Shown piece by piece: positions 2,116 to 41,615 of a DNA stretch of 64,000 nucleotides. The stretch is from Streptomyces sp. B21-083 (GTDB lineage: Bacteria > Actinomycetota > Actinomycetes > Streptomycetales > Streptomycetaceae), in NCBI RefSeq assembly GCF_036898825.1, contig NZ_JARUND010000002.1:1550001-1614000 (forward strand), read 5' to 3'. The notes below the pieces were generated by a model that saw only the letters and a program-made list of their open reading frames with translations, was not told where the DNA came from and did no database searches. The stretch's first letter is position 1; each line of letters opens with the position of its first letter. The position numbers and the translations under genes were made by a program.

Positions 2116-3009
2116 TCAGTGAGCGTGTCCCGTCGTGGGCTCCCCTTCTTCGAGGTCGGGGGGTGTGCAGTAGTCGACGTCCGGTTCCGGGGAGATGAGG
2201 TCGCCCGATTCGGCGTCGGTGCAGTAGGCGTCGAAGACCTCGCCGGCGGTCAATGGCTCGACTCCGTCAGCGCGCAGGCGCCAGCCGTATACGCGGTCGC
2301 TGTGTCCGGAGGCGGTGGTGCGCATGACGAGGCCGCCGGGGCTCTGTGCGGCGAGTCCGAGCGCCAGGACCGTCGTGAATTCGAGAGCTTCGGCCTCGTC
2401 TAGTTCTGTGGCGCCCTCGCTGTCGTCGTCGGCGTGAAGGACGGCGATCAGTGTTTCGACCGGTGTCGTGACACTGCAGACGAGATGCCTGTTTCCCGGT
2501 GGGGCGGTGTCGATGATGCGGACGAGAAGGCTCGAAGCACGGGCGAAGGCCGCGCGCCCGATGTCCTCGCCGCAGGACGCGCATGCGCCGATACGCGCCA
2601 GGAGTGTGGCGGCGTACTCCCAGGTCGCCTGTCGGACGGCCTCGTCGACCAGGTCCGGGAGCAGTTCGGCGAGGGGTCGGCCGTCGTACGGAACGGTCGG
2701 GCCAGTGGTCGCGAGTTCCGCTGTGAAGCGGGTGCGGCTGGTCGAGGCATCCGGGTCGAGGCCGGTGACGGTGCAGAATTCGGCGTACTCCTCCGGGTCG
2801 AAGAGCGCGACGGTGGTGTGGTTGCCCTGGGCGGCGAGGCTCCTCAGGAGAGCTTCCACCTCCCGGAGGTAGGCCGTGTGGTTGTCGAAGGTGAAGGTGC
2901 GGTAGCGCCGCATCGCCCGGAAGTCGTGCTCGTCGGTGAGCAGGCCGATGGTGCCCGCGATTTCGCGGCGCAGAACGCGCCGCATGGTTGATTGCCCGGT
3001 GTTCGTCAT
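2116..3009 (-). CDS. Conserved protein of unknown function, 297 aa
   Basis: I do not recognise a family with a known function. The protein is soluble (no signal peptide or membrane helix), acidic at the C-terminus, and has a central CASCGED motif near residue 152 and a C-terminal region ending in DLEEGEPTTGHAH. The start at 3009 is chosen because AGGGGG lies five bases upstream; the frame is open a little further to 3042. It starts 22 bases after the MFS transporter stop on the same strand, so the two are probably co-transcribed from the divergent promoter near 4330 and under the MocR-type regulator at 4351. A role linked to the transported compound is possible but unproven. Confidence 0.75.
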   Translation of the reverse strand: MTNTGQSTMRRVLRREIAGTIGLLTDEHDFRAMRRYRTFTFDNHTAYLREVEALLRSLAAQGNHTTVALFDPEEYAEFCTVTGLDPDASTSRTRFTAELATTGPTVPYDGRPLAELLPDLVDEAVRQATWEYAATLLARIGACASCGEDIGRAAFARASSLLVRIIDTAPPGNRHLVCSVTTPVETLIAVLHADDDSEGATELDEAEALEFTTVLALGLAAQSPGGLVMRTTASGHSDRVYGWRLRADGVEPLTAGEVFDAYCTDAESGDLISPEPDVDYCTPPDLEEGEPTTGHAH

Positions 3010-3031
3010 GGTTCCCCCTGTGCGCTGTCGA

Positions 3032-4297
3032 TCAATGCTCACTCACAGTAATCGGAGGCACTGACAATGCCTTTTGTGTCAGGCGGTCGCGGACGACGCG
3101 GTGCTGGATCATGCAGGTCACAGCGATGCCGACGCCGAAGCTGGTCCAGCCGAGAGGCCCGGTGGCGATGGCCGCCGTGACGGCCAGTGGTCCGATGCTG
3201 CGCTGGACGGCTTGCGCGAGTCCGTGGACACCGAGGTACGCGCCCTGTGCGGTGTCGGAAGCGAGGGCGACGGAGATCTCCCAGGAGACGGTGGCGTGGA
3301 GCATCTCGGCCAGGGTGAAGGCGGCGGCCGAGGCGGTGAGGAAGAGCGTCGCGGAGGTGGTCGTACCGGTTGCCGAGAGGGCCATGGTGACGCCGCCCAG
3401 GGCGAAGACCGCGGAGAGCGGGAGCAGCAGTGCGCGAGCGGCCTTGGTGGTGGCGCCGAAGCGGGCCAGGGGGACCTGGAGGGCAACCACCAGCACGTTG
3501 TTGAGGACCATCAGCAGGGGTGCGAGGCCGGTCGGTGCGCTGCCGGTGTGGGCGATCCAGAGGGGCAGGCCGACCTTGAAGACCGCGTCGTCGAGGAAGA
3601 GGACGGCCTCGGTCGCGACGTAGGCGAGGTAGGTGCGATCGCGCCAGGGATTCGCCGGTCTGTCCGTGGGCGTCGGGTCGGACGATGTGATGACCGTGCG
3701 GGAGGGCGAGGGGGGTTCCGCACAGCGGAGGGTGAGCATCGCGATGGCGACGAACGAGAGTGCGTCGCCGACGAGAAGCCATCGGTAGGCCGCGGTGGAG
3801 CCGAGGGCCAGGGCCGCGGCAGCGGCCAGGCCGCCCAAGGCCCAACCGGCGTTGGCGGCGGTCCGGTTGACCGCCTGGTATCGGACGCGGTCCGGGCCGG
3901 CGACGCGGGTGGCATAGAGCTTTGTGATGACGCTGGACGCGCGGTCGCCGAAGCCGCCGACGGCCGTACACGCGAGGAGTACCGCGTAGTGATCGGTCGT
4001 GAGCAGGGCGAACGAGGCCAGAGCACGCGTCACCTGGACGGCGACCAGGACGCGGGTGAGCGGGAAGCGGTCGGCGAGGCGGCCGCCCATGGGTGCTCCG
4101 GCGATGCCGATGGCTCCCGCCGCGGCGACAAGGGTGCCGACCTCCGCGACGGAGAGGCCGGAGACATAGGTGAAGTAGAGGACGGAGACGGATGCCCACA
4201 GTCCGCTGCCGATGCGGTCGACGAGAGTGATGACGAGCATTTTGCGGCCGTCGGGGCCTCCTGGTAGGCGGTCGATCCAGGCTGCCGCACGGCGCAT
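3032..4297 (-). CDS. MFS transporter
   Basis: A 421-aa polytopic protein of the major facilitator superfamily with about 12 hydrophobic segments. The cytoplasmic loop after helix 2 reads GGRLADRFPLTRV, matching the MFS motif-A pattern (G-x-L-a-D-R). Efflux is plausible because of the neighbouring MocR-type regulator, but the substrate is unknown. Two starts are possible: ATG at 4297 (11 bases after AGGGG) or GTG at 4306 (only 2 bases after it); I use the ATG. It is the first gene of a two-gene operon with the 297-aa unknown protein and diverges from the regulator at 4351 across a 44-53 bp gap that is almost filled by a palindrome. Confidence 0.85.
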   Translation of the reverse strand: MRRAAAWIDRLPGGPDGRKMLVITLVDRIGSGLWASVSVLYFTYVSGLSVAEVGTLVAAAGAIGIAGAPMGGRLADRFPLTRVLVAVQVTRALASFALLTTDHYAVLLACTAVGGFGDRASSVITKLYATRVAGPDRVRYQAVNRTAANAGWALGGLAAAAALALGSTAAYRWLLVGDALSFVAIAMLTLRCAEPPSPSRTVITSSDPTPTDRPANPWRDRTYLAYVATEAVLFLDDAVFKVGLPLWIAHTGSAPTGLAPLLMVLNNVLVVALQVPLARFGATTKAARALLLPLSAVFALGGVTMALSATGTTTSATLFLTASAAAFTLAEMLHATVSWEISVALASDTAQGAYLGVHGLAQAVQRSIGPLAVTAAIATGPLGWTSFGVGIAVTCMIQHRVVRDRLTQKALSVPPITVSEH

Positions 4298-22563: not shown

Positions 22564-24144
22564 ATGGAGCAACCCCCCATGGACCGATCACTCATGACCA
22601 CCGACGAGTTCGACTACGTGGTGGTGGGCGGTGGCACCGCAGGCAACGTGGTGGCCGCGCGCCTCTCGGAGGACCCGTCCGTCACGGTGTGCGTGCTGGA
22701 AGCGGGCCCGAGCGATGTCGGCGACGACGACGTCCTCAGACTCGAACGCTGGATGGGCCTGCTGGAGTCCGGCTACGACTGGGACTACCCGGTCGAACCG
22801 CAGGCCAGCGGCAACAGCTTCATGCGGCACGCCCGAGCGAAGGTGCTCGGCGGCTGCTCCTCCCACAACTCCTGCATCGCCTTCTGGGCCCCGGCGGAGG
22901 ATCTCGACGACTGGGCGGCGGCGGGCTGTACGGGCTGGAGCGCGGCCGATCTCTTCCCGCTCTACCGGCGCCTGGAGACCAACGACGCCCCCGGCGACCA
23001 CCACGGCCGCACCGGACCGGTGACGCTCCGTACTCTGAAGAGCGAGGACCCGTGCGGCGCCGCCCTGCTGGAGGCGTGTGCACAGGCGGGCATCCCCACC
23101 ACGCCCTTCAACACCGGGAACACCGTGCTCCGCGGGGCCAACTGGTTCCAGATCAACTCCGACGAGAACAACATCCGTCAGTCGTCCTCCGTCGCCTATC
23201 TCCATCCGGTCATGGGCAGGCGGCCGAACCTGGAGGTACGAACGGGGGTGCGGGCGAAGCAGCTCGTGCTGGAGGGGCGTCGGTGCGTGGGCGCCGAGTA
23301 CCTCGACCCGGATCTCATCCACACCAGGACCGTACGGGCGCGCCGCGAGGTCATCGTGTCCTGCGGGGCGATCGACACCCCGAAGCTGCTCATGCTGTCC
23401 GGTATCGGCCCGGCCGAGCAGTTGCGCGAGGTCGGCGTCGAGGTGGTCGTGGACTCCGCCGGCGTCGGTGAGAACCTGCAGGACCACCCCGAGGGCGTCA
23501 TCATGTGGGACGCCGCACAGCCGATGACCACGACTTCGAGTCAGTGGTGGGAGGCGGGCATCTTCTACGACACCGAACCGGGCCTGGACCGGCCCGACCT
23601 GATGTTCCACTACGGTTCGGTGCCGTTCGACATGAACACCGCGCGTTGGGGCTATCCGACCTCGGAGAACGCGTTCTGCCTCACCCCCAACGTGACCCGG
23701 GCGAAGTCGCGCGGCACGGTGCGGCTGCGTACCCGCGACTACCGGGACAAGCCGATGGTCGATCCGCGGTACTTCACGCACGAGCACGACGCGCGTGTGA
23801 TGACGTACGGGCTGAAACTGGCACGACGGATCGCCGCCCAGCCCGCGCTGAGCGGCTGGGCGGGGGCGGAACTGGCCCCCGGGCCGGATGTCCGGACGGA
23901 CGACGAGCTGCTGGACTACATCCACAAGACCCACAACACCGTCTACCACCCGGCCTGCACCGTGAAGATGGGTGCGGACGACGACGCCTCGGCGCCGCTG
24001 GACGCGCGGCTGCGGGTGAAGGGCGTCGATGGGTTGCGGGTCGCCGACGGGTCGGTGATGCCGGATCTGGTGACGGTGAATCCGTGTATCACGACGATGA
24101 TGATCGGTGAGAAGTGTGCGGACCTTTTGAAGCAGGACGCGTAG
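22564..24144 (+). CDS. codA: Choline oxidase (GMC oxidoreductase)
   Basis: A 526-aa FAD-dependent GMC enzyme that oxidises choline to betaine aldehyde and glycine betaine. The dinucleotide fold is VVVGGGTAGNVVAARLSE. It closely follows the Arthrobacter choline oxidase sequence as I remember it: His101 in GGCSSHNSCIAFWAP matches the histidine that carries covalent FAD (His99), Ser103 follows it, His462 in NTVYHPACTVKMG matches His466, and Asn506 in VTVNPCITTMMIGE matches Asn510. The residue two after Asn506 is cysteine, where the known enzyme has asparagine. The ATG is preceded by AAGGAGGT that overlaps the permease stop region. It is the last gene of the operon, and a hairpin follows. Confidence 0.9.
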   Translation: MEQPPMDRSLMTTDEFDYVVVGGGTAGNVVAARLSEDPSVTVCVLEAGPSDVGDDDVLRLERWMGLLESGYDWDYPVEPQASGNSFMRHARAKVLGGCSSHNSCIAFWAPAEDLDDWAAAGCTGWSAADLFPLYRRLETNDAPGDHHGRTGPVTLRTLKSEDPCGAALLEACAQAGIPTTPFNTGNTVLRGANWFQINSDENNIRQSSSVAYLHPVMGRRPNLEVRTGVRAKQLVLEGRRCVGAEYLDPDLIHTRTVRARREVIVSCGAIDTPKLLMLSGIGPAEQLREVGVEVVVDSAGVGENLQDHPEGVIMWDAAQPMTTTSSQWWEAGIFYDTEPGLDRPDLMFHYGSVPFDMNTARWGYPTSENAFCLTPNVTRAKSRGTVRLRTRDYRDKPMVDPRYFTHEHDARVMTYGLKLARRIAAQPALSGWAGAELAPGPDVRTDDELLDYIHKTHNTVYHPACTVKMGADDDASAPLDARLRVKGVDGLRVADGSVMPDLVTVNPCITTMMIGEKCADLLKQDA

Positions 24145-24159
24145 AGGGGGCGGGCCGTG

Positions 24160-24200
24160 GGGGAACTGCGGCGCCGTCGTGGCTGGTCGCGCAGTTCCCC
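24160..24200. terminator. Bidirectional terminator between codA and the JetC-like gene
   Basis: An 11-bp perfect stem GGGGAACTGCG / CGCAGTTCCCC with a 19-base loop between two convergent genes (stops at 24144 and 24207). Its right half is part of the dispersed 28-base repeat at 24181-24208. Confidence 0.75.
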
Positions 24201-24208
24201 GCGCCCCT
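24181..24208 (-). repeat. Dispersed intergenic repeat, copy 1
   Basis: Read on the minus strand, AGGGGCGCGGGGAACTGCGC followed by GACCAGCC. It matches 26 of 28 positions with copy 2 at 29881-29908. It overlaps the stop codon of the JetC-like gene (TAG at 24207-24209). Similar short GC-rich elements are, to my knowledge, scattered between genes in many Streptomyces chromosomes. Confidence 0.75.
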
Positions 24209-27200
24209 AAGTAGCTGACGTGGTCGATCGTTTGAACATTCGTGTTGCCGTGATTTCGCTGCGGACCGCGTCTCCCTCCCCGGCCTGGGTCTGCTGCGGC
24301 AGTCCCGGTCGGAGGTGTTCCTCGACGCTGATGTACTTCAGACCCGCGCGGAGGTCGGCGTCGTTGCGGAGGCGGATGACGAGCGGGAACTCGGCTAGCG
24401 CGGTCGTGTCGAACAGGCCGGTGGTGTACAGGAGTTGGACGCCGAGCGCGTCGGACACGGCTCGCTGGAGCTCCAGCAGGTAGGTCGCGTTGGCTCGCCC
24501 GATGGGGTTGTCGAGGAACAGCGTGCCGGCGTGCCGGTGCTTGTCGCGGCCCCGGTCGTTGCTGCGCAGCGCGGCCATCGTGCAGTACAGGGCGATGGCC
24601 GCGGTGAGCAGCTGGCCGCCCGAGAACACGTCGCCCATCTGCCCGACGGGGACGCGTTCGGCGCGCAGTACGGCGTCGGGCTTGAGGATCTCGACGGCGA
24701 TGCCCTTGGGCTGGAGGGCGGCGCCGACTCCCCTCAGGAGGAGGGACATTCCGTCCCGGCGCAGGTCGGAGTTCTTCTTCACGGCCGCCCGGGTCGCGTC
24801 GTCGACGACCTCGCCGAGCCGCTCGGTGAGGGTCGCCTGGTCGGGCTCCTCGAACCGGATGCGCAGGAACTCCTGCCCGGACCACTCGCCGAGCCCCTCG
24901 GGCAGCCGGGACAGCCGCTGCGCGGACCGCAGGGTGGCCAGCGACGACTCCACCAGCCCGCGCAGCCGGTCCACGATCGAGTCCCGGTTCCGCTCCAGTT
25001 GCGCCAACTCGTCGGTCAGGACCCGGAGTCGGGGTGCGAAGGCGTCCGCCCACTTCTGCGCGTGCTCGGGCAGCGCGGACGCGGGCAGTTCACGGATCTG
25101 CTGGCGGGCGGGGGTACGCACCGCCTCGTACCGCGTGGAGTTGGCATGCCGTACGAGGATGTCGCTCGCCTCGCGGACGGCGGCCTCGGCCGCGGACAGG
25201 TCGGCGGCGCAGCCGCGCAAGGAGCGGCGGGCCTCGGCGGCCGACTGCCGGGCTTCCTCCGGGCTTCCGGGGTAGGGCTCCGGGGCTTCCCGCTCATCGT
25301 CCGAGGTGTGCTCGCGCAGCAGGTCGCGGAGCATCGCGGCGATCTCGTCGAACCCTGAGGCCGCGTCCTCGGCTGCCCGGTTGGAGTCGAGAAGTTCGGC
25401 GTGCGCCTCCCTGGCCTGGGCCAACGCCTCGGTACGGGAGGCCAGTTCGGCGGTGGCGGTGCGCAGCAGGACCTGAGCGTGTTCGGCGTCGCGCGGGACG
25501 AGTTCCTCGGCCAGCTCGGTGTGCGCCTCGCCGTCCTCGGGCGCGTGCCGCTCGGCCTCGCCGCGCAGCCGCCCGAGCTGCTCGCTGGCCGTGGACACCC
25601 GGGTCTCCAGGAGCTGCACGAGTTCCTCGGCCCGCGCGGAGGCGGCCTGCCGGGACGGTCCGTCGGACCCCTCGGGCACCTGCAGCAGCTGTTCGGCGCG
25701 CGTACGCACCTTGTTGCTCAGTCGGTCCAGGTCCGCGCGGGCGGCGCTCTCGTCGCTCTCGGAGCGTGCCTGCTCCGCGCGCAGGTCGGCCCCGACGCCG
25801 ACCTTCTCGTACAGCTGGGAGGCGGCCCGGTAGGCCTCGCGGAGGGCGGGCAGCGACGACTTCGCGGCGTCCTCGTCGGCTTCCGGCAGGTCATCGGGGG
25901 CGCCCGCGATCTCAGCGCGCTCGGCGCGCAGGGCGCGGGCCGTGCGGCGCGCGTCGTCGGCGGCGCGCTGGACAGCGCGCCGGTCCTCGTCGGCGGACCG
26001 TGCACGCTCCAAGCAGACCTGGGCGCGGGCCTCCGACTCCACCGCCTCGTCGGCCAGTTCACGCACCTTGACCTGCCAGCCGGCGCGTTCACGCAGCCGG
26101 TACGCCAGGCCGGCGAGCGCGTCGGCGGCGCGCCGGGCCCGCTGGGCGGCCTCCTGCCGCTCGTCCCGGACTCGGGACGCCTCGCTCGCCACCTCGTCGG
26201 CCTCGGCCCGCACGGTCCGCGCCTCGGCCAGCTCGGCCTCGGCCTCCTCGGCGAAGGCACGCGCGTCCTGCGCGGCACGGGCCAGCTCGACAAGCCGCCC
26301 GGCCGGACAGCCCGTACGCCAGGAGGCGAGCCGCGCGCCCAGTTCCCGGTCCTTGCCGAGCCGCGCGGCGAGTGTGCGGATCTCCTCCTCGCGCTCACCC
26401 GCCCTGGCCCGCAGCGTCTGCCGTTCCTCGTCGGCGGCGTGTTCGTCGTGCATGGCCGGGTTCGGCGGTACGAGGAACACGTCGCCGTCGCCCGGTCCGG
26501 GGGCCGGGGTGGGGGCGAGCAGGGCTGCTGCCGTACCGACCGCCACGGCCGAGCGGGGCAGCAGAGCCGCGTCGGCGAGGGCCTCGCGGGCACGCGCGTG
26601 TGTGCCTGGGTCGGTGATGATGACGCCGTCGACCAGTTCGGGGCGGGCTGCCAGCACGCGCGCGTGGTCGACGGGGTCGACGGCCTGGGCGAGATAGCGC
26701 CAGCCGGGCAGCGCGGGGATGCCGTGCTCGCCGAGGAACTCGACGGTGGCGAGCACATCGGGGCCGGCCGGCAGCAGCCCGCCGTCACCGAGCGCGCCGA
26801 GGATCCGGGCGTCGTCGGCGGCGGCGGTCCGCAACTCGAAGAGCTGCCGCTCGGCGGAGGTGACACCGCCGTCGAGCAGCTCATGGAGTTCGTCGGCGAA
26901 GCGGTCCAGGTCCTCAGGGGTCAGAGGACCTTCGGCGGCGGCACGGGAAGCGCCCTTCCCATCGTCCCCGGCCGTACTCTCGGCACCGCTGTCCTCACCC
27001 GGGCCGTGCTGGCGCGGCACCGCGGCCCGTCCCCGCTGCCTACCGCCGGCGGACGGCAGGCTCAGCAGGTCGGCGAGCCGTTCCTCCGCCGCCAGGGCCT
27101 CTGCGGTGCGCCGCTCGGCGTCGTACGCGCGCTCGGCCGCCGTGGCGGCGTCCGCCGCGCGGGCGGCCGTCAGCTCCGCGCGGGACTCGGCGGACGCCGC

Positions 27201-28895
27201 CTCCCGCGCGTGCTCGGAAGCCCGCCCGGAGGCCTCACGGGAGGTGTCCCAGGCCGCGACGGCTGTCTTCTCGGCGTCGCTGGCGGCGAGCGCGGCCCGT
27301 GCCGGGTCCGCGTCGGGAGCACTGTCGTCGAGCCAGCCCGCGCGCACCGCCTCGGCGGTCTCCTGTTCGACCTCACTGAGCCGCTGCCGCAGATGCCCGA
27401 CCTCGCTGCGGGCGCGCTGTGCCTCGGTGGCCGCGCCGGTCGAGTCCCGGTGGGCGACCTCGCTGATCTCCTGGAGGGCGGCCGACCGCTCCTCCTCCTC
27501 GTTGGCGAGCGCCTCCGCACCTTCCGCCGCCGAGTGCAGCGCCCGTACGAGGTCGACGGCGGCCTTGGCGCGGGCGGCGAGCGCCGGGGCCGCGTCCCGT
27601 TCGGCCTCGCGGATCGCGACGGCCACACGCGCGGAACGATCGGCGGCGGCGCGGTGCCGCAGGACGACCTCGGCGGCCTGCCAGGCGGAGTGCATGGTGC
27701 GCGCGTCGGCGAGTTCGCGCTTCTGCGCGGCTGCCGTCTTCTCCGCCGCCGCGAGGGCCAGGGAAGCATGCCGGAAGGCGAGTTCGGCGGCGATCAGCGC
27801 GCTGCGCTCCCGCGCGCCCTCGGAATGGGTGACGGTGTAGGCGGCGGCGGTGACCCGCTGGGCGAGATCCCCGGCCCTGACCCGTTCCTGGACGCCCCGC
27901 GCGGTAAGCCGCCGGGCCAGGGTGCGTGTCCGGCGCTCCGCACCGGCGTGGACGTCCCGCGCGCGGGACCGTGTTTCCGCCGCTTCGACGATGCGTCCGA
28001 GCAGGTCGACGGACCCGGCGGTGAAGTCCCGTTCGGCGATCAGTTCGGACCGTCGCCCCAGCTTGTTGCCGAAGCCTCCGACCAGGTCGGCAAGCCCGTC
28101 CGTGTCCCGGGTGTCGGTGACCGCGCGCAGCAGCAGGTCGGTGAAGTCGGAGTCCTTCTTGACCGCGAAGAGGCCGGCGGCCTCACCCTCGTCGGCGTTC
28201 ATCTCCCGCTGGTAGCGGAAGAGTTCGGGGTCGAGACCCAGTTCCCCCAGATGCTCGACCCAGCGGTCGTGGATCTCCTCCCAGTGCACTTCGAGATGCG
28301 GATACGCCTTGCCCGCCTCGGTGATCGCGTCCCGGAAGCCCTTCATCGTGCGGCGCCGCCCCTGGGCACCGGATACGCCCTCCACCGGCGGCCGTACGGC
28401 GGTGGACTCGGCGACGGGAAGGTTGTCGAGGCTCAGCCCCGGGCCGGGCCGGAAGGAGTACCAGGCCTCGGCGAACTTCCGCGGGTCGTTGGAGACCTGC
28501 CGGCCCCGCCACTCGCTCGCCTTGCCGACCACCACCAGCTCACCGGTGAGCGTGTGCTGCCACTCCAGGACGACATGCCCGCAGTCGTCGGCGAGCAGGA
28601 ACTTCCGCAGCACACCGGAGCTGGCGCCACCCAGGGTGTTGCGGTGCCCGGGGAGCATCACGGAGAAGATCAGCTTGAGGAGTACCGACTTGCCGCCGCC
28701 GTTCTCCAGGAAGAGCACACCGGCGGGCGCGGGCCGGCGCGGCGGTCCGACGGGCTCGTCCTCGAAGAACTCCGCCTGGGTGGGCGCGGGGTCGGGCACC
28801 GGCGCGCCGACACCCCGCAGGTCAAGCACGGTGTCGGCGTAGCGCGCACCGGCGGGACCGATGGAGTAGAGGCGGACCCGGGACAGCTCGTACAT
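24207..28895 (-). CDS. JetC/MukB-like SMC-family ATPase
   Basis: A 1562-aa protein with split ABC-type ATP-binding motifs at the two ends and a huge Ala/Glu/Arg-rich coiled coil between them, interrupted by a globular hinge-like part near residues 720-860. Walker A is ENGGGKSVLL (Lys69, Ser70), the ABC signature is FSGGQLLTAAIAL (about 1424), and the Walker B region is GTLFLDNPIGRANA (Asp1462, Asn1463). Asn follows the Walker B Asp where classical SMC proteins have the catalytic Glu. This layout is that of JetC/MksB, the motor of Wadjet and Mks condensin-like complexes that load on and extrude DNA. It is third in a jetA-jetB-jetC-ordered operon; no jetD follows. The family assignment rests on motifs and gene order. 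Confidence 0.82.
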   Translation of the reverse strand: MYELSRVRLYSIGPAGARYADTVLDLRGVGAPVPDPAPTQAEFFEDEPVGPPRRPAPAGVLFLENGGGKSVLLKLIFSVMLPGHRNTLGGASSGVLRKFLLADDCGHVVLEWQHTLTGELVVVGKASEWRGRQVSNDPRKFAEAWYSFRPGPGLSLDNLPVAESTAVRPPVEGVSGAQGRRRTMKGFRDAITEAGKAYPHLEVHWEEIHDRWVEHLGELGLDPELFRYQREMNADEGEAAGLFAVKKDSDFTDLLLRAVTDTRDTDGLADLVGGFGNKLGRRSELIAERDFTAGSVDLLGRIVEAAETRSRARDVHAGAERRTRTLARRLTARGVQERVRAGDLAQRVTAAAYTVTHSEGARERSALIAAELAFRHASLALAAAEKTAAAQKRELADARTMHSAWQAAEVVLRHRAAADRSARVAVAIREAERDAAPALAARAKAAVDLVRALHSAAEGAEALANEEEERSAALQEISEVAHRDSTGAATEAQRARSEVGHLRQRLSEVEQETAEAVRAGWLDDSAPDADPARAALAASDAEKTAVAAWDTSREASGRASEHAREAASAESRAELTAARAADAATAAERAYDAERRTAEALAAEERLADLLSLPSAGGRQRGRAAVPRQHGPGEDSGAESTAGDDGKGASRAAAEGPLTPEDLDRFADELHELLDGGVTSAERQLFELRTAAADDARILGALGDGGLLPAGPDVLATVEFLGEHGIPALPGWRYLAQAVDPVDHARVLAARPELVDGVIITDPGTHARAREALADAALLPRSAVAVGTAAALLAPTPAPGPGDGDVFLVPPNPAMHDEHAADEERQTLRARAGEREEEIRTLAARLGKDRELGARLASWRTGCPAGRLVELARAAQDARAFAEEAEAELAEARTVRAEADEVASEASRVRDERQEAAQRARRAADALAGLAYRLRERAGWQVKVRELADEAVESEARAQVCLERARSADEDRRAVQRAADDARRTARALRAERAEIAGAPDDLPEADEDAAKSSLPALREAYRAASQLYEKVGVGADLRAEQARSESDESAARADLDRLSNKVRTRAEQLLQVPEGSDGPSRQAASARAEELVQLLETRVSTASEQLGRLRGEAERHAPEDGEAHTELAEELVPRDAEHAQVLLRTATAELASRTEALAQAREAHAELLDSNRAAEDAASGFDEIAAMLRDLLREHTSDDEREAPEPYPGSPEEARQSAAEARRSLRGCAADLSAAEAAVREASDILVRHANSTRYEAVRTPARQQIRELPASALPEHAQKWADAFAPRLRVLTDELAQLERNRDSIVDRLRGLVESSLATLRSAQRLSRLPEGLGEWSGQEFLRIRFEEPDQATLTERLGEVVDDATRAAVKKNSDLRRDGMSLLLRGVGAALQPKGIAVEILKPDAVLRAERVPVGQMGDVFSGGQLLTAAIALYCTMAALRSNDRGRDKHRHAGTLFLDNPIGRANATYLLELQRAVSDALGVQLLYTTGLFDTTALAEFPLVIRLRNDADLRAGLKYISVEEHLRPGLPQQTQAGEGDAVRSEITATRMFKRSTTSAT

Positions 28896-28957
28896 GGCGG
28901 ACTCTCGTAGTCGTAAGGGAGTAGTCGGGTTGGGGGTGAAGGCCGTCGGAGTGGCGG

Positions 28958-29827
28958 TCAGGAGTGGTGGAACGGCAGTCCGGCGTCGGCCACCAGCTCC
29001 AGGTCGTCGGAGTCCTCGGCGGGCAGCAGCGTCGGTGTCCCGTCGGTGACCGGCACGACGCCCAGCTCCAGCAGCTCGGCCATGGCGGCGTTGCCGGCCA
29101 TGTCCCGGACCTGGAGCTGATAGCGGGCCGTCGTGCGATACGTACCGCCGTTGTCGTCACCCGTGCGCTGGAGGAAGCCGGAGTCGGTGAGGAAGACGAC
29201 GGCCTTGCCGACGATGCCGGTGGTCGAACCGGCCGGTCTCCGCGCGTCCTTGGTGGCCCCCGTGGCGCTGCGCCTTATCCAGATCCGCCAGGCTGCTTCG
29301 AGTCCCGGGGCGTCGCTGACCGGGTCGGTGATCTCGCCCTGCGCCTCGGCCCGCTCCTCCAGTCGCCGGCAGGCCTGCCGTACGAAGGCCTCGACGCCGT
29401 TTACGGTGACACGCCCGATGTAGCCGTCGTCGGCGAGGTCCTCGGGCCGCGGAAACGCCATGGCGGCCACGGCGAGGTGCGCGAGCCCGTGCAGGAACCG
29501 GTCCGACCCGTCGGCGGAGGTACGGCGGGCGTAGTCCCCCATCCGAACGGCGAACAAGGAGTCCTCGGCGGCGGTCACCGCCATCCCCGCGCGCGGGGAC
29601 ACCTCCAGCACCACCAGTCCCAGCCCGGCGGCCACGGCGTCGGCGAGCCGGGCGAAGGCCGAGTCCTCGCGGTACCGACGCAACAACTCGGCGTACTCCT
29701 GGTCCCGGGCGGCCTGCAGCTTGGGCTGAAGCCCGAAGGCGACCAGCCGCGCGGCATCAGCGGCATCGCCAGGAGTGATGACGGCAGCGACGGCCTCCGG
29801 CTCACTCCGGTCGACGTGCTCGTTCAC
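28958..29827 (-). CDS. JetB/MksE-like accessory subunit
   Basis: A 289-aa soluble protein with no catalytic motif that I can see. It is helical and winged-helix-like in pattern (YIGRVTVNGVEAFVRQACRR then STTGIVGKAVVFLTDSGFLQ), as expected of a small KITE-type subunit. It lies between the kleisin-like and SMC-like genes, the position of jetB in Wadjet and mksE in Mks operons; in those systems this subunit bridges kleisin and motor. The GTG at 29827 follows AGGGAG by nine bases. The SMC-like gene starts 62 bases downstream. It is shorter than the type II Wadjet JetB as I recall. Function is inferred from context. Confidence 0.7.
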   Translation of the reverse strand: MNEHVDRSEPEAVAAVITPGDAADAARLVAFGLQPKLQAARDQEYAELLRRYREDSAFARLADAVAAGLGLVVLEVSPRAGMAVTAAEDSLFAVRMGDYARRTSADGSDRFLHGLAHLAVAAMAFPRPEDLADDGYIGRVTVNGVEAFVRQACRRLEERAEAQGEITDPVSDAPGLEAAWRIWIRRSATGATKDARRPAGSTTGIVGKAVVFLTDSGFLQRTGDDNGGTYRTTARYQLQVRDMAGNAAMAELLELGVVPVTDGTPTLLPAEDSDDLELVADAGLPFHHS

Positions 29828-29880
29828 AGCTGGGACTCCCTACGGTTCAGGTGGACGGGGGTGTGGTCAAGTGCCCCTAC

Positions 29881-29908
29881 AGGGGCGCGGGGAACCGCGC
29901 GACAAGCC
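29881..29908 (+). repeat. Dispersed intergenic repeat, copy 2
   Basis: AGGGGCGCGGGGAACCGCGC followed by GACAAGCC, 26/28 identical to copy 1. It lies in the 118-base gap between the JetA-like and JetB-like genes, inside what should be one operon, with a short GCCCCTACAGGGGC hairpin at its left edge. It may attenuate expression of jetB-jetC. Confidence 0.7.
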
Positions 29909-29945
29909 CCCACCGGCCGCGAGCCGACGAACAAACCGCACATCA

Positions 29946-31472
29946 TCACGCCGCCTCCTTACGCCCCGCGGCCATCCCCACCACATCCAGCAACGCCATC
30001 CCGACGATCAGATCGGCGCCCCCGAACTCCGGGTCGTCCAGCTCCGTCCCGTCATCGACGGCGAACAACAACTTCCTCTCACCCTGCCGATAGGCCGTCC
30101 CGACCGGCGGACTGGCCGCGTGAACAGCCAACAGCGCCACCAGATAAGGGAGTTCCGCGTCCCGGAGACGCGCCTCGGCGAGCAGCCCCGACAGCCTCCG
30201 AGGCGCGTCCGCGGGCAGATCCAGCAACTCCATGGCCGCCGCCAGCTGTTCCTCGCTGAACCGGCTGTCGTACGGCGTGGCGATCAGATCCGGCTCCGGC
30301 ATCTCGGCCCCGAGGTGCTCCCGCTCCAGTGGCGGCGTCAGCAGTATGTCCACGAGGTCGCCGACCCGGACCGACACCGGCGTACGAAGCCCCGTCCCGC
30401 GCGCGAAGAACGCGTCCGTGACCCGCACCGCTGCTTCCAGGGGCAACGGCAGGACAGGGGCGACCAGATGGCCGTACAGATCTATCCCCGAGGACGTCAT
30501 CGGGGTCGCGAAGGCCTGCCGGTCCTGTTCGGCGCGGAACAGCGGTCCCGCCTCAAGGAGGCGGGACTGGAGAAGCGTGTGCCGCCGGATGCAGTCCTTC
30601 ACGATGTCGACGAGTTCGGCGGCCCGCCGCTTCTGCTCCGGGTCCTCGGACTCGTCACGGGCCTTGCGGATGTTGGTCAGGATCGCGTTCTCGTGGCGGT
30701 ACCGGTCGGCGACGTGGTCGAGCGCCTCGGCGATCATGTCGGGGACCGTCTGGAGCCAGTCCACCGCGCGCACGTTGCGCCGGGTCGCGTCCAGCGCCCT
30801 GCGCAGGATCTCGGAGTACTGCACGGTGCGGTAGCGGGCCTGCTCCGCGGCGAGCTGGGCGTCGGCCAGCCGGCCCCGGCTGATCAGCACCTCCAGCTTG
30901 ACCTCCGCGGCGATCTGGGCGCTGGTGACATCGGTGTCGAGGGCGCCGACGAGTACGTTGACGGCCTCGTCCGTCGTACGGAGGTAGACGCTTCCGCCGT
31001 ACCCCGGGACCTCTTCGATCAGCTTGAAGTCGTAGTCACGGCGTACATACGTGCCGTCCGGCGCGAACGTGCCGTACACGGCCCGGAAGCCGCGGTCGAC
31101 GCTGCCGACGTTGATGAGGTTCTCCAGCACCCAGCGGGCGACGCGCTCGTGTTCGCTGACGGGCCGCCGCGGGGCTTGGGCGGCGATGCGCGGGATGAGG
31201 CGGGCGACGATCTGATCGTGGTCGGCGCCCGTGTCGAAGTCCATGTTGAGGGTGACCAGGTCGATGGCCGCGAGGGCCACCTCCGCCATGCCGTACACCG
31301 AGTACTCGCCCGCGAGATTCGCCTTGCGCGCGTCCAGGTCGTGGAGCGGGGCGGTGCAGGCGAGCGCGCGCAGGCGCCGCGCCAGTCCCTCGTCGGCGGC
31401 CGGGCCCGGAGCGGGCCGCGGCCCCGCGCTGAGCTGGGGCGGAACGCTGTCCGTCGATGCAGGCGAAGTCAC
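29946..31472 (-). CDS. JetA/MksF-like (kleisin-type) subunit
   Basis: A 508-aa soluble, largely helical protein: a helical N-terminal half with a wing-like region (about residues 60-230), a long charged middle (DHVADRYRHENAILTNIRKA), and a C-terminal half with PVSVRVGDLVDILLTPPLER. It is first in a three-gene operon with JetB-like and JetC-like products, so it takes the place of the kleisin JetA/MksF that closes the SMC ring. No nuclease motif is seen. GTG 31472 has no Shine-Dalgarno sequence, but TAGTCT (31480-31485) ends exactly 7 bases upstream, suggesting a leaderless transcript; the alternative TTG at 31502 directly abuts GGGGAG. Assignment is by order and general shape. Confidence 0.7.
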   Translation of the reverse strand: MTSPASTDSVPPQLSAGPRPAPGPAADEGLARRLRALACTAPLHDLDARKANLAGEYSVYGMAEVALAAIDLVTLNMDFDTGADHDQIVARLIPRIAAQAPRRPVSEHERVARWVLENLINVGSVDRGFRAVYGTFAPDGTYVRRDYDFKLIEEVPGYGGSVYLRTTDEAVNVLVGALDTDVTSAQIAAEVKLEVLISRGRLADAQLAAEQARYRTVQYSEILRRALDATRRNVRAVDWLQTVPDMIAEALDHVADRYRHENAILTNIRKARDESEDPEQKRRAAELVDIVKDCIRRHTLLQSRLLEAGPLFRAEQDRQAFATPMTSSGIDLYGHLVAPVLPLPLEAAVRVTDAFFARGTGLRTPVSVRVGDLVDILLTPPLEREHLGAEMPEPDLIATPYDSRFSEEQLAAAMELLDLPADAPRRLSGLLAEARLRDAELPYLVALLAVHAASPPVGTAYRQGERKLLFAVDDGTELDDPEFGGADLIVGMALLDVVGMAAGRKEAA

Positions 31473-31637
31473 GGTGCCCAGACTAGGTCCTCGGTCTGAC
31501 AACTCCCCAAACGACGCGGATCGGCGCCGGCGGCCGGACGCGGGCCACCGGTCACCGGTCGTCCACGGGCCGGTCGTGGCAGGTTGGGAGCCGGCCGCGT
31601 CCGCGCGGCGGAGCCGAACTGCCGGAGGCCTCGTCCC

Positions 31638-39883: not shown

Positions 39884-41314
39884 TCATCCCCCGTTCACAT
39901 GGCGGGTGGAATCGGGCCCGATACGGCTTCTCACCGCGGTCTGGACCTCGGCCTCCTCGGCCGGGTCGGCGGCGAGTCTGCGCAGTTGTTCGACGACCCT
40001 GGCGTCACCGGTCTCGGCGTGCCGGGCGGCGACCTCTCGGGTGGTCTCCTCGCAGTCCCACAGGCATTCGACGGCGAATCCGGCGGCGAAGGAGGGGTCG
40101 GTGGCGGCGAGGGCCCGGGCGGCCCGACCGCGCAGATGGGAGGAGGCGGTCTCGCGGTAGATGTGGCGCAGTACGGGGGCGGCGCAGACGATGCCGAGCC
40201 GTCCCGTGCCGTCCACGAGGGTCCACAGGGTCGGCGCGTCGGGTCCTTCGCCCCGTACGGCCTCCCGCAGTGCGCCGAGGACGAGGTCGCTGTCCCGGGT
40301 GGCTCCCAGGCAGGCGAGCATCCGTCCGGCGGCGGCGCCCAGGGGGTCGGGTCGGTGGACCCACCCGCGCGCGCGGTCGACGGCGGCGATACTGCGCATA
40401 CGTTCGAATGCGTCGACGGCGGCCTCCACGACAGCCGTCGTGCCGTCGGCGACCGCGCCCTCGACCAGGTCGAGGGCATCGGGATCATTGCTGTCCGCGA
40501 GATAGCGCAGGGCCGTACAGCGGGCGCCGTCGCCACCGCTGCGGGCCGCCTCCACGATCTGGGGCCGGTCCTCCGGACCTGCCACAGCCGTCAGACAGCG
40601 CGCGGCGGGCACATGCAGGACTGCACCTCGGTCGAGGCCCTGCTGGGCCCACTCGAAGACGGCCTGCACGCTCCAGCCCGGGCGAGGCCCGGAGGGTCGC
40701 ATCTGGCGTTGCCAGCGGTCGAAACAGCCGGTTTCCTGGGCGGCACGCACCCGCGCGGAGATCGATTCGCGTGAGTCCTCGGCCCACAGCCGCCAGGGCC
40801 GGGGTTCGAAGGCGTCCCGCACGGCGGCGGCGAGTTCCGCCTCGCCCTCCGGGTCGGTGCCGAAGCGGGCCAGCACGGGGGCGGCGAGGGCGCGCAGCCC
40901 CGCGTCGTCGTCCCTGAGTGCCAGCTCGTCCAGCGCCCAGGCCCAGCTGGTGCCGGTGGCGGCGTACCCGCGCAGCAGTTCGAGCGCGTCCCGCCTGCCG
41001 TAGGAGGCGAGGTGCCCGAGGACCGCGAGGGCGAGCCCGGTGCGTGACTCGTCGGTGTCGAGGATGTCCTCGGCGTCGAAGAGATGGGCCTCGATCTCGT
41101 CGAGCTCACCGTGGAGGTCGACATAGAGACGGGCGTAGTAGAGGGAGCGGTTCTCCACCTGCCAGTCGTGGCGGGGGTCGCGGAGCACGCATTGGTTCAG
41201 TGCCGCGAGCGCCTCGGCCCGCGGTGCGGTGAGTGCGTGCAGCGTGCCGTCGCCGCGGCCCCTCTGGAGCAGGCCGAGCAGCGTACCGCTGGGCGCTATG
41301 ACCGGATCGAACAT
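39884..41314 (-). CDS. HEAT-repeat protein
   Basis: A 476-aa soluble protein made mostly of alpha-helical pairs of HEAT type: for example RPQIVEAARSGGDGARCTAL, DPDALDLVEGAVADG, DSDLVLGALREAVRG and AARALAATDPSFAAGFAVEC. No catalytic motif is visible. The N-terminal region contains HDWQVENRSLYYARLYVDLH, which is distinctive. It probably serves as a protein-interaction scaffold. ATG 41314 lies ten bases after GAGG; GTG 41329 is an alternative start. The two glycosyltransferases follow on the same strand, but the 128-base gap makes co-transcription uncertain. Confidence 0.8.
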   Translation of the reverse strand: MFDPVIAPSGTLLGLLQRGRGDGTLHALTAPRAEALAALNQCVLRDPRHDWQVENRSLYYARLYVDLHGELDEIEAHLFDAEDILDTDESRTGLALAVLGHLASYGRRDALELLRGYAATGTSWAWALDELALRDDDAGLRALAAPVLARFGTDPEGEAELAAAVRDAFEPRPWRLWAEDSRESISARVRAAQETGCFDRWQRQMRPSGPRPGWSVQAVFEWAQQGLDRGAVLHVPAARCLTAVAGPEDRPQIVEAARSGGDGARCTALRYLADSNDPDALDLVEGAVADGTTAVVEAAVDAFERMRSIAAVDRARGWVHRPDPLGAAAGRMLACLGATRDSDLVLGALREAVRGEGPDAPTLWTLVDGTGRLGIVCAAPVLRHIYRETASSHLRGRAARALAATDPSFAAGFAVECLWDCEETTREVAARHAETGDARVVEQLRRLAADPAEEAEVQTAVRSRIGPDSTRHVNGG

Positions 41315-41615
41315 GGGAAACAGCCTCACATCAAGCGTCGACGCAACCGGGATCCTGCTTTACCTGGCCGCGTGACAACACGTCGGGGCGCCCGCCGTTT
41401 CCTGCTTGCTGTAGACCATCTTCCTCTGCCTCTCGTAGGTGGGCCCATGCGGACCGCATCACGGCCCGCGCGGTGCGGCAACATCTGCCCGGCCATCACG
41501 TCCATGAATCACGACGTCATGATGACCCGGCTGTTCAAGCTGCCGCGACCGTATTTCCGGCGGCCCCGTTCCGCCTCCCCCGTTTTCCTTGTCCTAGCTG
41601 GTCAGTGCGTACGGC
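41315..41615. other. Intergenic region between ankyrin and HEAT genes
   Basis: About 300 bases. A plus-strand frame is open here, but its codon use and predicted sequence do not look like a protein. I see no clear hairpin or operator; the promoter of the HEAT-repeat gene presumably lies here. Confidence 0.4.

Follow-up and report, generated by a model that had tools for sequence, protein, structure and literature searches.

In the window analysed here, a 64,000-nt stretch of the chromosome of Streptomyces sp. B21-083, a jetABC operon (24207-31472, minus strand) encodes a structural maintenance of chromosomes (SMC) complex of the Wadjet type III kind, with no jetD, the nuclease gene of these defence systems, within it. 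At a probability of about 0.5, we take this complex to be a Wadjet type III motor which, after losing JetD, came to serve in chromosome maintenance or repair, under a DNA-damage-type promoter in Streptomyces. Behind this reading stand the gene content of the operon, the resemblance of the predicted folds to SMC-associated subunits, the absence of jetD, the breadth of the distribution, purifying selection, conserved Walker A and signature motifs and a promoter motif before jetA.

Composition and family identity of the operon

The three genes follow each other as jetA-jetB-jetC with the order and sizes given in a preliminary description of this DNA (508, 289 and 1562 aa), all on the minus strand: a jetA-like kleisin gene (29946..31472, from GTG 31472), a jetB-like KITE gene (28958..29827) and a jetC-like SMC ATPase gene (24207..28895; Walker A FLENGGGKS, signature FSGGQ, Walker B LFLDNP). 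The mechanically called jetA frame is 30 nt longer and reaches TTG 31502, the first triplet of the promoter motif described below. The GC content at third codon positions (0.89-0.90) versus second positions (0.47-0.53) in the three frames is typical of coding genes in the window. The jetC-jetB and jetB-jetA gaps measure 62 and 118 bp, respectively. Among 80 named Streptomyces loci found via jetA, jetB and jetC each accompany jetA in 79, so the grouping is not a matter of chance.

JetC matches PADLOC model JetC3 (PDLC00588, 1394 bits; DUF3584 SMC family) and JetA matches JetA3 (PDLC00567, 610 bits, residues 34-510), and both belong, as judged from sequence, to the Wadjet type III families. For JetB there was no PADLOC match; its predicted structure resembles a KITE subunit and that of JetA a kleisin subunit, both with moderate confidence, and as modelled JetB would represent the KITE subunit of Wadjet type III. 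Pfam and NCBIfam contained no named match for JetA, JetB or JetC and no MukB/MksB model match, and sequence searches of the Protein Data Bank with the three proteins returned nothing useful. The initial proposal of a JetABC-type SMC complex without JetD on a conserved chromosome is borne out. A candidate for the standard SMC protein (1408-aa frame) is also encoded in the same genome.

Walker A is found at 79 of the 80 named loci, the signature and Walker B at 69, and all three motifs at 18 of 18 loci from elsewhere in the family; the 11 named loci in which signature and Walker B were missed likely end at contig borders. In textbook SMC proteins Walker B reads D-E. The JetC of the window has D-N (LFLDNPIG), as do JetD-bearing copies, e.g. 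at loci L105 and L107-L111. A degraded ATPase specific to the JetD-less form was rejected and the reading of D-N as a dead site dropped, because JetC copies that retain JetD share it; from its sequence, the type III JetC branch may use a different catalytic base.

Absence of JetD and complete second copies

With a hidden Markov model built from an alignment of eight JetD proteins, no jetD was detected at any of the 80 named Streptomyces core loci, of which 79 have a jetC match and 69 extend 2.5 kb or more past it. The same held for 18 further core loci of the family, 14 of them in other genera, where 3.6 kb or more of sequence follows jetC in every case. The preliminary description had named a jetD just outside the operon in relatives as a finding that would refute its reading; none was found at these 98 core loci, 87 of which extend 2.5 kb or more beyond jetC. 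The same model scored the complete second copies described below, a positive control showing that JetD detection works. In the window, the 62-bp gap 3' of jetC holds no jetD and is too small for a jetD remnant. A conserved replacement nuclease directly downstream was also rejected, as no downstream gene of the window is near-universal at the 80 named loci.

On the genome scale, with genus and family names of the sampled genomes inferred from named relatives, JetD-like matches occur in 14 of 101 genomes of the genus by PF09983 and in 17 by PDLC00594 (18 in union), leaving 80 of the 98 genomes with a core jetA without a JetD-like match by either model. A strong type III JetD match (at least 150 bits) is present in ten of the 101 genomes; the same ten, and no others, carry a second, divergent jetA, and at all ten second-copy loci fetched from the genus (L105, L107-L115) jetD directly follows jetC. 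Two options had been left at the outset, a complex working without a nuclease and a JetD encoded elsewhere. The latter is not supported, with any JetD-like match confined to 18 of the 98 core-jetA genomes and the strong type III proteins sitting in second, complete jetABCD operons; the former is now the better option.

The second operon of B21-083 itself (C2:341-349 kb) reads jetA-jetB-jetC-jetD, with a jetA 52% identical to core jetA and with ORFs that abut or overlap, unlike the spaced genes of the core operon. Its jetD (L105 13781-15016; G000:C2:347852-348923) is split over two frames near the 3' end, and the only strong type III JetD of this genome may be broken or mis-sequenced. Directly after a 1073-aa SMC-like gene, the sole PADLOC match of which is mad3 (31.6 bits), a second JetD-like protein is encoded (C1:120635; 489 aa; up to 53.5 bits with JetD1 models); this unassigned SMC plus TOPRIM-like operon (G000:C1:116-121 kb, L106) lies 0.12 Mb from a contig end. 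In another genome (G090), divergent jetA genes with equal scores and opposite orientation lie near both ends of the 9.24-Mb chromosome (C1:8876 and 9228840), as expected for terminal inverted repeats. More than 43% of Streptomyces Wadjet systems have been located in the outer 10% of chromosome ends (PMC10482375), an enrichment that would fit complete operons rather than core jetABC.

Distribution, phylogeny and selection

Core jetA is present in 98 of the 101 genus genomes; the three others are 82% complete (G050), 78% complete (G079) or in 1140 contigs (G073). Across the family, JetA3 is matched in 148 of 150 genomes and in 17 of 17 genera, at E < 1e-130 in 146 genomes. The rest of the order has divergent JetA only (2 of 15 genomes), and in a draw from the class a JetA match was obtained in 23 of 197 genomes; outside the genus it is seen again in seven genomes, which belong to a single other family (f20). 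A survey of f20 found jetA in 19 of 35 genomes. Its 23 jetA loci (L148-L154, L170-L185) divide into 12 with at least 1 kb past jetC and no jetD (L148-L152, L154, L170, L172, L174, L179, L181, L182), three with jetD (L176, L180, L184) and eight that end too early to score.

Core JetA forms one clade in all three trees that were built, all of which carry long-branch warnings. The 49-row JetA tree unites core and f20 sequences in one clade (100/96). In the 57-row tree, where 9 rows without a clear operon end were set to 'unknown', JetD-less rows come together in 22% of bootstrap trees, and the tree of JetA, JetB and JetC combined favours two JetD losses (p-AU 0.053). A single loss as a settled reading was dropped, the first tree being for it, the second undecided and the third preferring two. 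Taken together, the trees suggest that JetD was lost once or twice.

The jetABC genes are under purifying selection. Comparing the window with up to 20 Streptomyces loci, the median ratio of nonsynonymous to synonymous substitution rates (dN/dS) was 0.061 for jetA, 0.109 for jetB and 0.135 for jetC, and 0.137-0.264 for six neighbouring genes.

A DNA-damage-type promoter before jetA

A promoter motif of the RecA-NDp/PafBC type, TTGTCAGACCGAGGACCTAGTCT, is located at 31480..31502 on the minus strand, 7 nt before the jetA GTG in a leaderless arrangement; it is absent from the preliminary description and new to this analysis. In 53 aligned upstream regions, the window included, there is one strongly conserved block, which runs into the GTG and has the consensus CGTTGTCAGACCGAGGACCTAGTCTGTGCACCGTG. 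The published consensus of the actinobacterial RecA-NDp promoter is tTGTCRgtg-8nt-TannnT (PMC5656591), and in mycobacteria this promoter is activated by PafBC (PMC6789036, PMC8223512). The jetA motif has all capital positions and the exact spacing of this consensus. The first gene of the operon is thus preceded by the core and spacing that mark the RecA-NDp/PafBC regulon (PMC5656591, PMC5087735), although the text of the regulon literature consulted, gene tables excluded, names no SMC complex of the JetABC kind.

The published core precedes jetA at all 78 testable named Streptomyces loci, two of the 80 having too little upstream sequence, and the GTG follows exactly 7 nt on in 77. Other patterns found 53 (strict) and 78 (loose) of 79 loci; the count of 78 out of 78 uses the published pattern. 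As the named loci are close relatives, these do not amount to 78 independent cases, and the other genera provide the better test: the core precedes jetA at 13 of the 18 family loci, and a fuller form of the motif, TTGTCGGTGG, occurs at L120, L121 and L128. The core was found before jetB at none of 79 named and none of 18 family loci, and before jetC at none of 79 and one of 18. Random windows from the same loci contained it in 167 of 20000 cases, a rate that overstates chance because jetA promoters may be among these windows. A LexA box (GAAC-N4-GTTC) precedes jetA at none of the 80 named loci.

A slightly stricter pattern has 48 sites in the genome (the jetA site included), as opposed to 6 when the pattern is reversed as a control; a position weight matrix of the motif was built separately, without the jetA site. 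ORFs were assigned to the sites mechanically, by their first possible start. Five sites have no clear ORF, and of the remaining 43 genes three (jetA and those at L221 and L232) were not scanned with NCBIfam. Among the 40 scanned genes, 16 have names in DNA repair or DNA/dNTP metabolism: XthA, SCO1167 helicase, YoaA/DinG, RecA, LigA, XseA, PcrA/UvrD, Ung, RuvC, UvrA, Ogt, UvrB, dGTPase and the weakly matched RarA-like, Hel308-like and RecD2-like proteins; these 16 names include matches below curated cut-offs, many of them on edge-cut ORFs. The TTGTCAGACC variant of the jetA motif is common to xthA and ligA, and recA and xthA likewise have 7 nt between motif and first possible start. A RecA-NDp promoter has been reported before a UV-inducible gene of S. 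coelicolor, and promoters of this type precede numerous damage genes (PMC5087735). The presence of the motif before recA, uvrA, uvrB, ruvC, ligA, xthA, xseA and ung here contrasts with a statement made for S. venezuelae (PMC9380542), taken up below. The window contains a second copy of the motif (3045-3067, minus strand), 2 nt before the first possible start of a 308-aa gene (~2119-3042, minus strand) that has no NCBIfam match and, by this motif, is a possible damage-response gene.

Proposed function and alternative explanations

In SMC complexes of this kind, DNA is entrapped by a JetC dimer that JetA and JetB close, and loops are extruded with ATP. In Wadjet, the JetD nuclease then cuts smaller circles after extrusion (PMC10586767); with JetD gone, JetABC would have no cleavage endpoint. 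The ancestor was probably a Wadjet type III defence system that lost this nuclease, after which JetABC would have been retained across Streptomyces and most of the family as a core complex, with a JetC ATPase dimer presumably closed by the JetA kleisin and the JetB KITE subunit. In Streptomyces, jetABC is probably transcribed as a leaderless operon from the RecA-NDp/PafBC-type promoter, and its expression would be predicted to increase upon DNA damage together with that of repair genes such as recA, uvrA and uvrB. The complex would then entrap chromosomal DNA and extrude loops without cutting it, and could thereby help, alongside the ordinary SMC, in compacting the linear, multi-copy chromosome once damaged, in keeping it together or in clearing it. 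Fixation in the genus, low dN/dS and, in Streptomyces, the repair-type promoter together suggest that the complex acts on DNA of the cell itself, most probably once this has been damaged. JetD loss combined with a chromosome role has a proposed precedent in Pseudomonas aeruginosa MksBEF (PMC10586767). A more specific version is put forward tentatively: domestication of a defence machine would have given the DNA-damage response a nuclease-free Wadjet complex, induced with recA and uvrAB, that acts on damaged chromosomes of Streptomyces and its family much as Smc5/6 does in eukaryotes, perhaps assisted by a HEAT-repeat partner.

Several observations weigh against a damage-linked maintenance complex. 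The jetA motif differs from the published consensus at the weak 'gtg' positions (GAC). The core is missing at five of the 18 family loci and at 16 of 18 f20 loci (present at two), so damage control is not universal among JetD-less forms, and it also precedes four of 18 JetD-bearing operons (L110, L111, L113, L160), so the motif is not tied to JetD loss; some complete Wadjets may, from this motif, themselves be damage-inducible. With a D-N Walker B in JetC3 proteins with and without JetD, ATP hydrolysis is not to be assumed. In two family genomes, G272 and G219, the latter being the one representative of genus g14, JetA3 is matched only weakly or in a divergent form. The other 24 of the 40 scanned motif genes have different names or none. 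Lastly, conservation of the M. smegmatis PafBC motif in S. venezuelae was not indicated by an initial search, and the study reporting this left the LexA-independent damage response in Streptomyces open (PMC9380542).

A rival explanation is a housekeeping condensin of the MksBEF kind, acting in chromosome organisation or segregation (e.g. during sporulation), for which the motif would provide only basal expression and damage would be irrelevant. The core distribution, purifying selection, the MksBEF precedent and the lack of the motif in some genera and most of f20 are all compatible with such a role. It is nevertheless unlikely, as the motif is the most conserved part of the jetA upstream region and also precedes further repair genes in this genome, recA, uvrA and uvrB among them. 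Rather less plausible is surveillance of foreign circular DNA without cutting, in which JetABC would compact or silence plasmids and phage circles: Wadjet motors do recognise small circles (PMC10586767) and the relatives found here are Wadjet defence operons by model, but near-universality in the genus and low dN/dS set core jetABC apart from the patchy complete second copies (10 of 101 genomes).

That a nuclease encoded elsewhere completes a Wadjet in trans is improbable. B21-083 does possess both a type III jetD (C2:347852) and the second JetD-like gene (C1:120635), yet the former is split over two frames and part of its own operon, and the 80 core-jetA genomes without a match to PF09983 or PDLC00594 argue against it, other nuclease families lying outside these models. 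JetD beside the core operon was found in none of the 18 JetD-positive genomes. A decaying remnant of a defence system, to which the loss of jetD might point, can be dismissed given the intact ORFs in the window, dN/dS of 0.06-0.14, conserved Walker A and signature motifs and near-universal retention in the genus.

A linked HEAT-repeat gene and other features of the window

A gene for a 481-aa HEAT-repeat protein (39884..41329, minus strand; PF13646, 30.9 bits) shares the strand of jetA and lies upstream of it in 72 of the 80 named loci, the other eight having only 0.05-8.5 kb of upstream sequence. By coordinates it adjoins jetA in three other genera (L116, L119, L127) and, read by eye, lies within ~20 kb upstream in every sampled genus except g18, where it was not found within ~19 kb upstream in two of three genomes (L141, L144). 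No such gene stands beside the f20 operons L148-L154, although f20 genomes have weak matches to it, and no counterpart was found beside 12 complete operons compared. The damage-type motif precedes the HEAT gene at none of 19 named and none of seven family loci, and its membership in the damage regulon was rejected on this ground. The HEAT gene is genetically linked and a possible partner of JetABC, a lead rather than a part; the linkage may be plain inheritance of gene order. A partner of this type would perhaps parallel, by analogy, the HEAT subunits of eukaryotic SMC complexes.

Downstream of jetC, the 62-bp gap (24145..24206) before a convergent GMC oxidoreductase gene forms a strong, terminator-like hairpin without a T-run (RNA fold of 24140-24212: -36.8 kcal/mol, z -3.14). 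A scan for T-run terminators called none at the operon end. The oxidoreductase is present in 21 of the 80 named loci. With up to 2 mismatches allowed, the sequence GCGCAGTTCCCCGCGCCCCT occurs just twice in the window (0 expected), once at the jetC end (24189-24208, plus strand) and once in the jetA-jetB gap (29881-29900, minus strand), and a close form of it occurs 26 times across 18 of the 80 named loci.

Relation to known complexes and implications

Core jetABC shares with Wadjet type III (JetABCD) the JetA and JetC families and the gene order A-B-C, and some of the same genomes hold complete copies. It differs in the lack of JetD, in being core rather than patchy and in its damage-type promoter in Streptomyces. 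P. aeruginosa MksBEF is likewise an SMC-kleisin-KITE operon without a nuclease; core jetABC, however, is of the type III lineage by PADLOC, matches no MukB/MksB model, is an actinobacterial core gene set and has the damage-type promoter, and the losses of a JetD-type nuclease in the two would have been independent. Another actinobacterial Wadjet motor, MksBEFG (Wadjet I) of Corynebacterium glutamicum, keeps its MksG nuclease, acts on plasmids and has no effect on chromosome organisation (PMC10123090), unlike core jetABC in having that nuclease.

The suggestion that this is an undescribed system is borne out by half. By sequence the proteins belong to Wadjet type III, and JetD loss has the proposed MksBEF precedent (PMC10586767). 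On the other side, titles and abstracts among the matches listed for the Wadjet, SMC, MksBEF and PafBC literature, with few subscription journals, do not describe the jetABC complex, and a search by term of the text available for three papers on Streptomyces SMC (PMC13121528, PMC8410768, PMC12511625) found no mention of it. In work on the Streptomyces chromosome, as far as these sources extend, the role of condensin is assigned to SMC.

Core jetABC could be scored as immunity by defence-finding tools that use only JetA and JetC. The list of motif sites bears on the LexA-independent damage response in Streptomyces, a question stated in PMC9380542. If the proposed function is true, the family would have a second, old SMC complex, placed in Streptomyces under a promoter of the damage type. 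Such a complex would be relevant to how breaks are dealt with in bacteria whose linear chromosome is present in many copies. With the nuclease-free and the complete form side by side in roughly one in ten of the Streptomyces genomes searched (10 of 101), the operon would then represent a natural experiment in which the motor of a plasmid-cutting immune system became a motor of chromosome maintenance.

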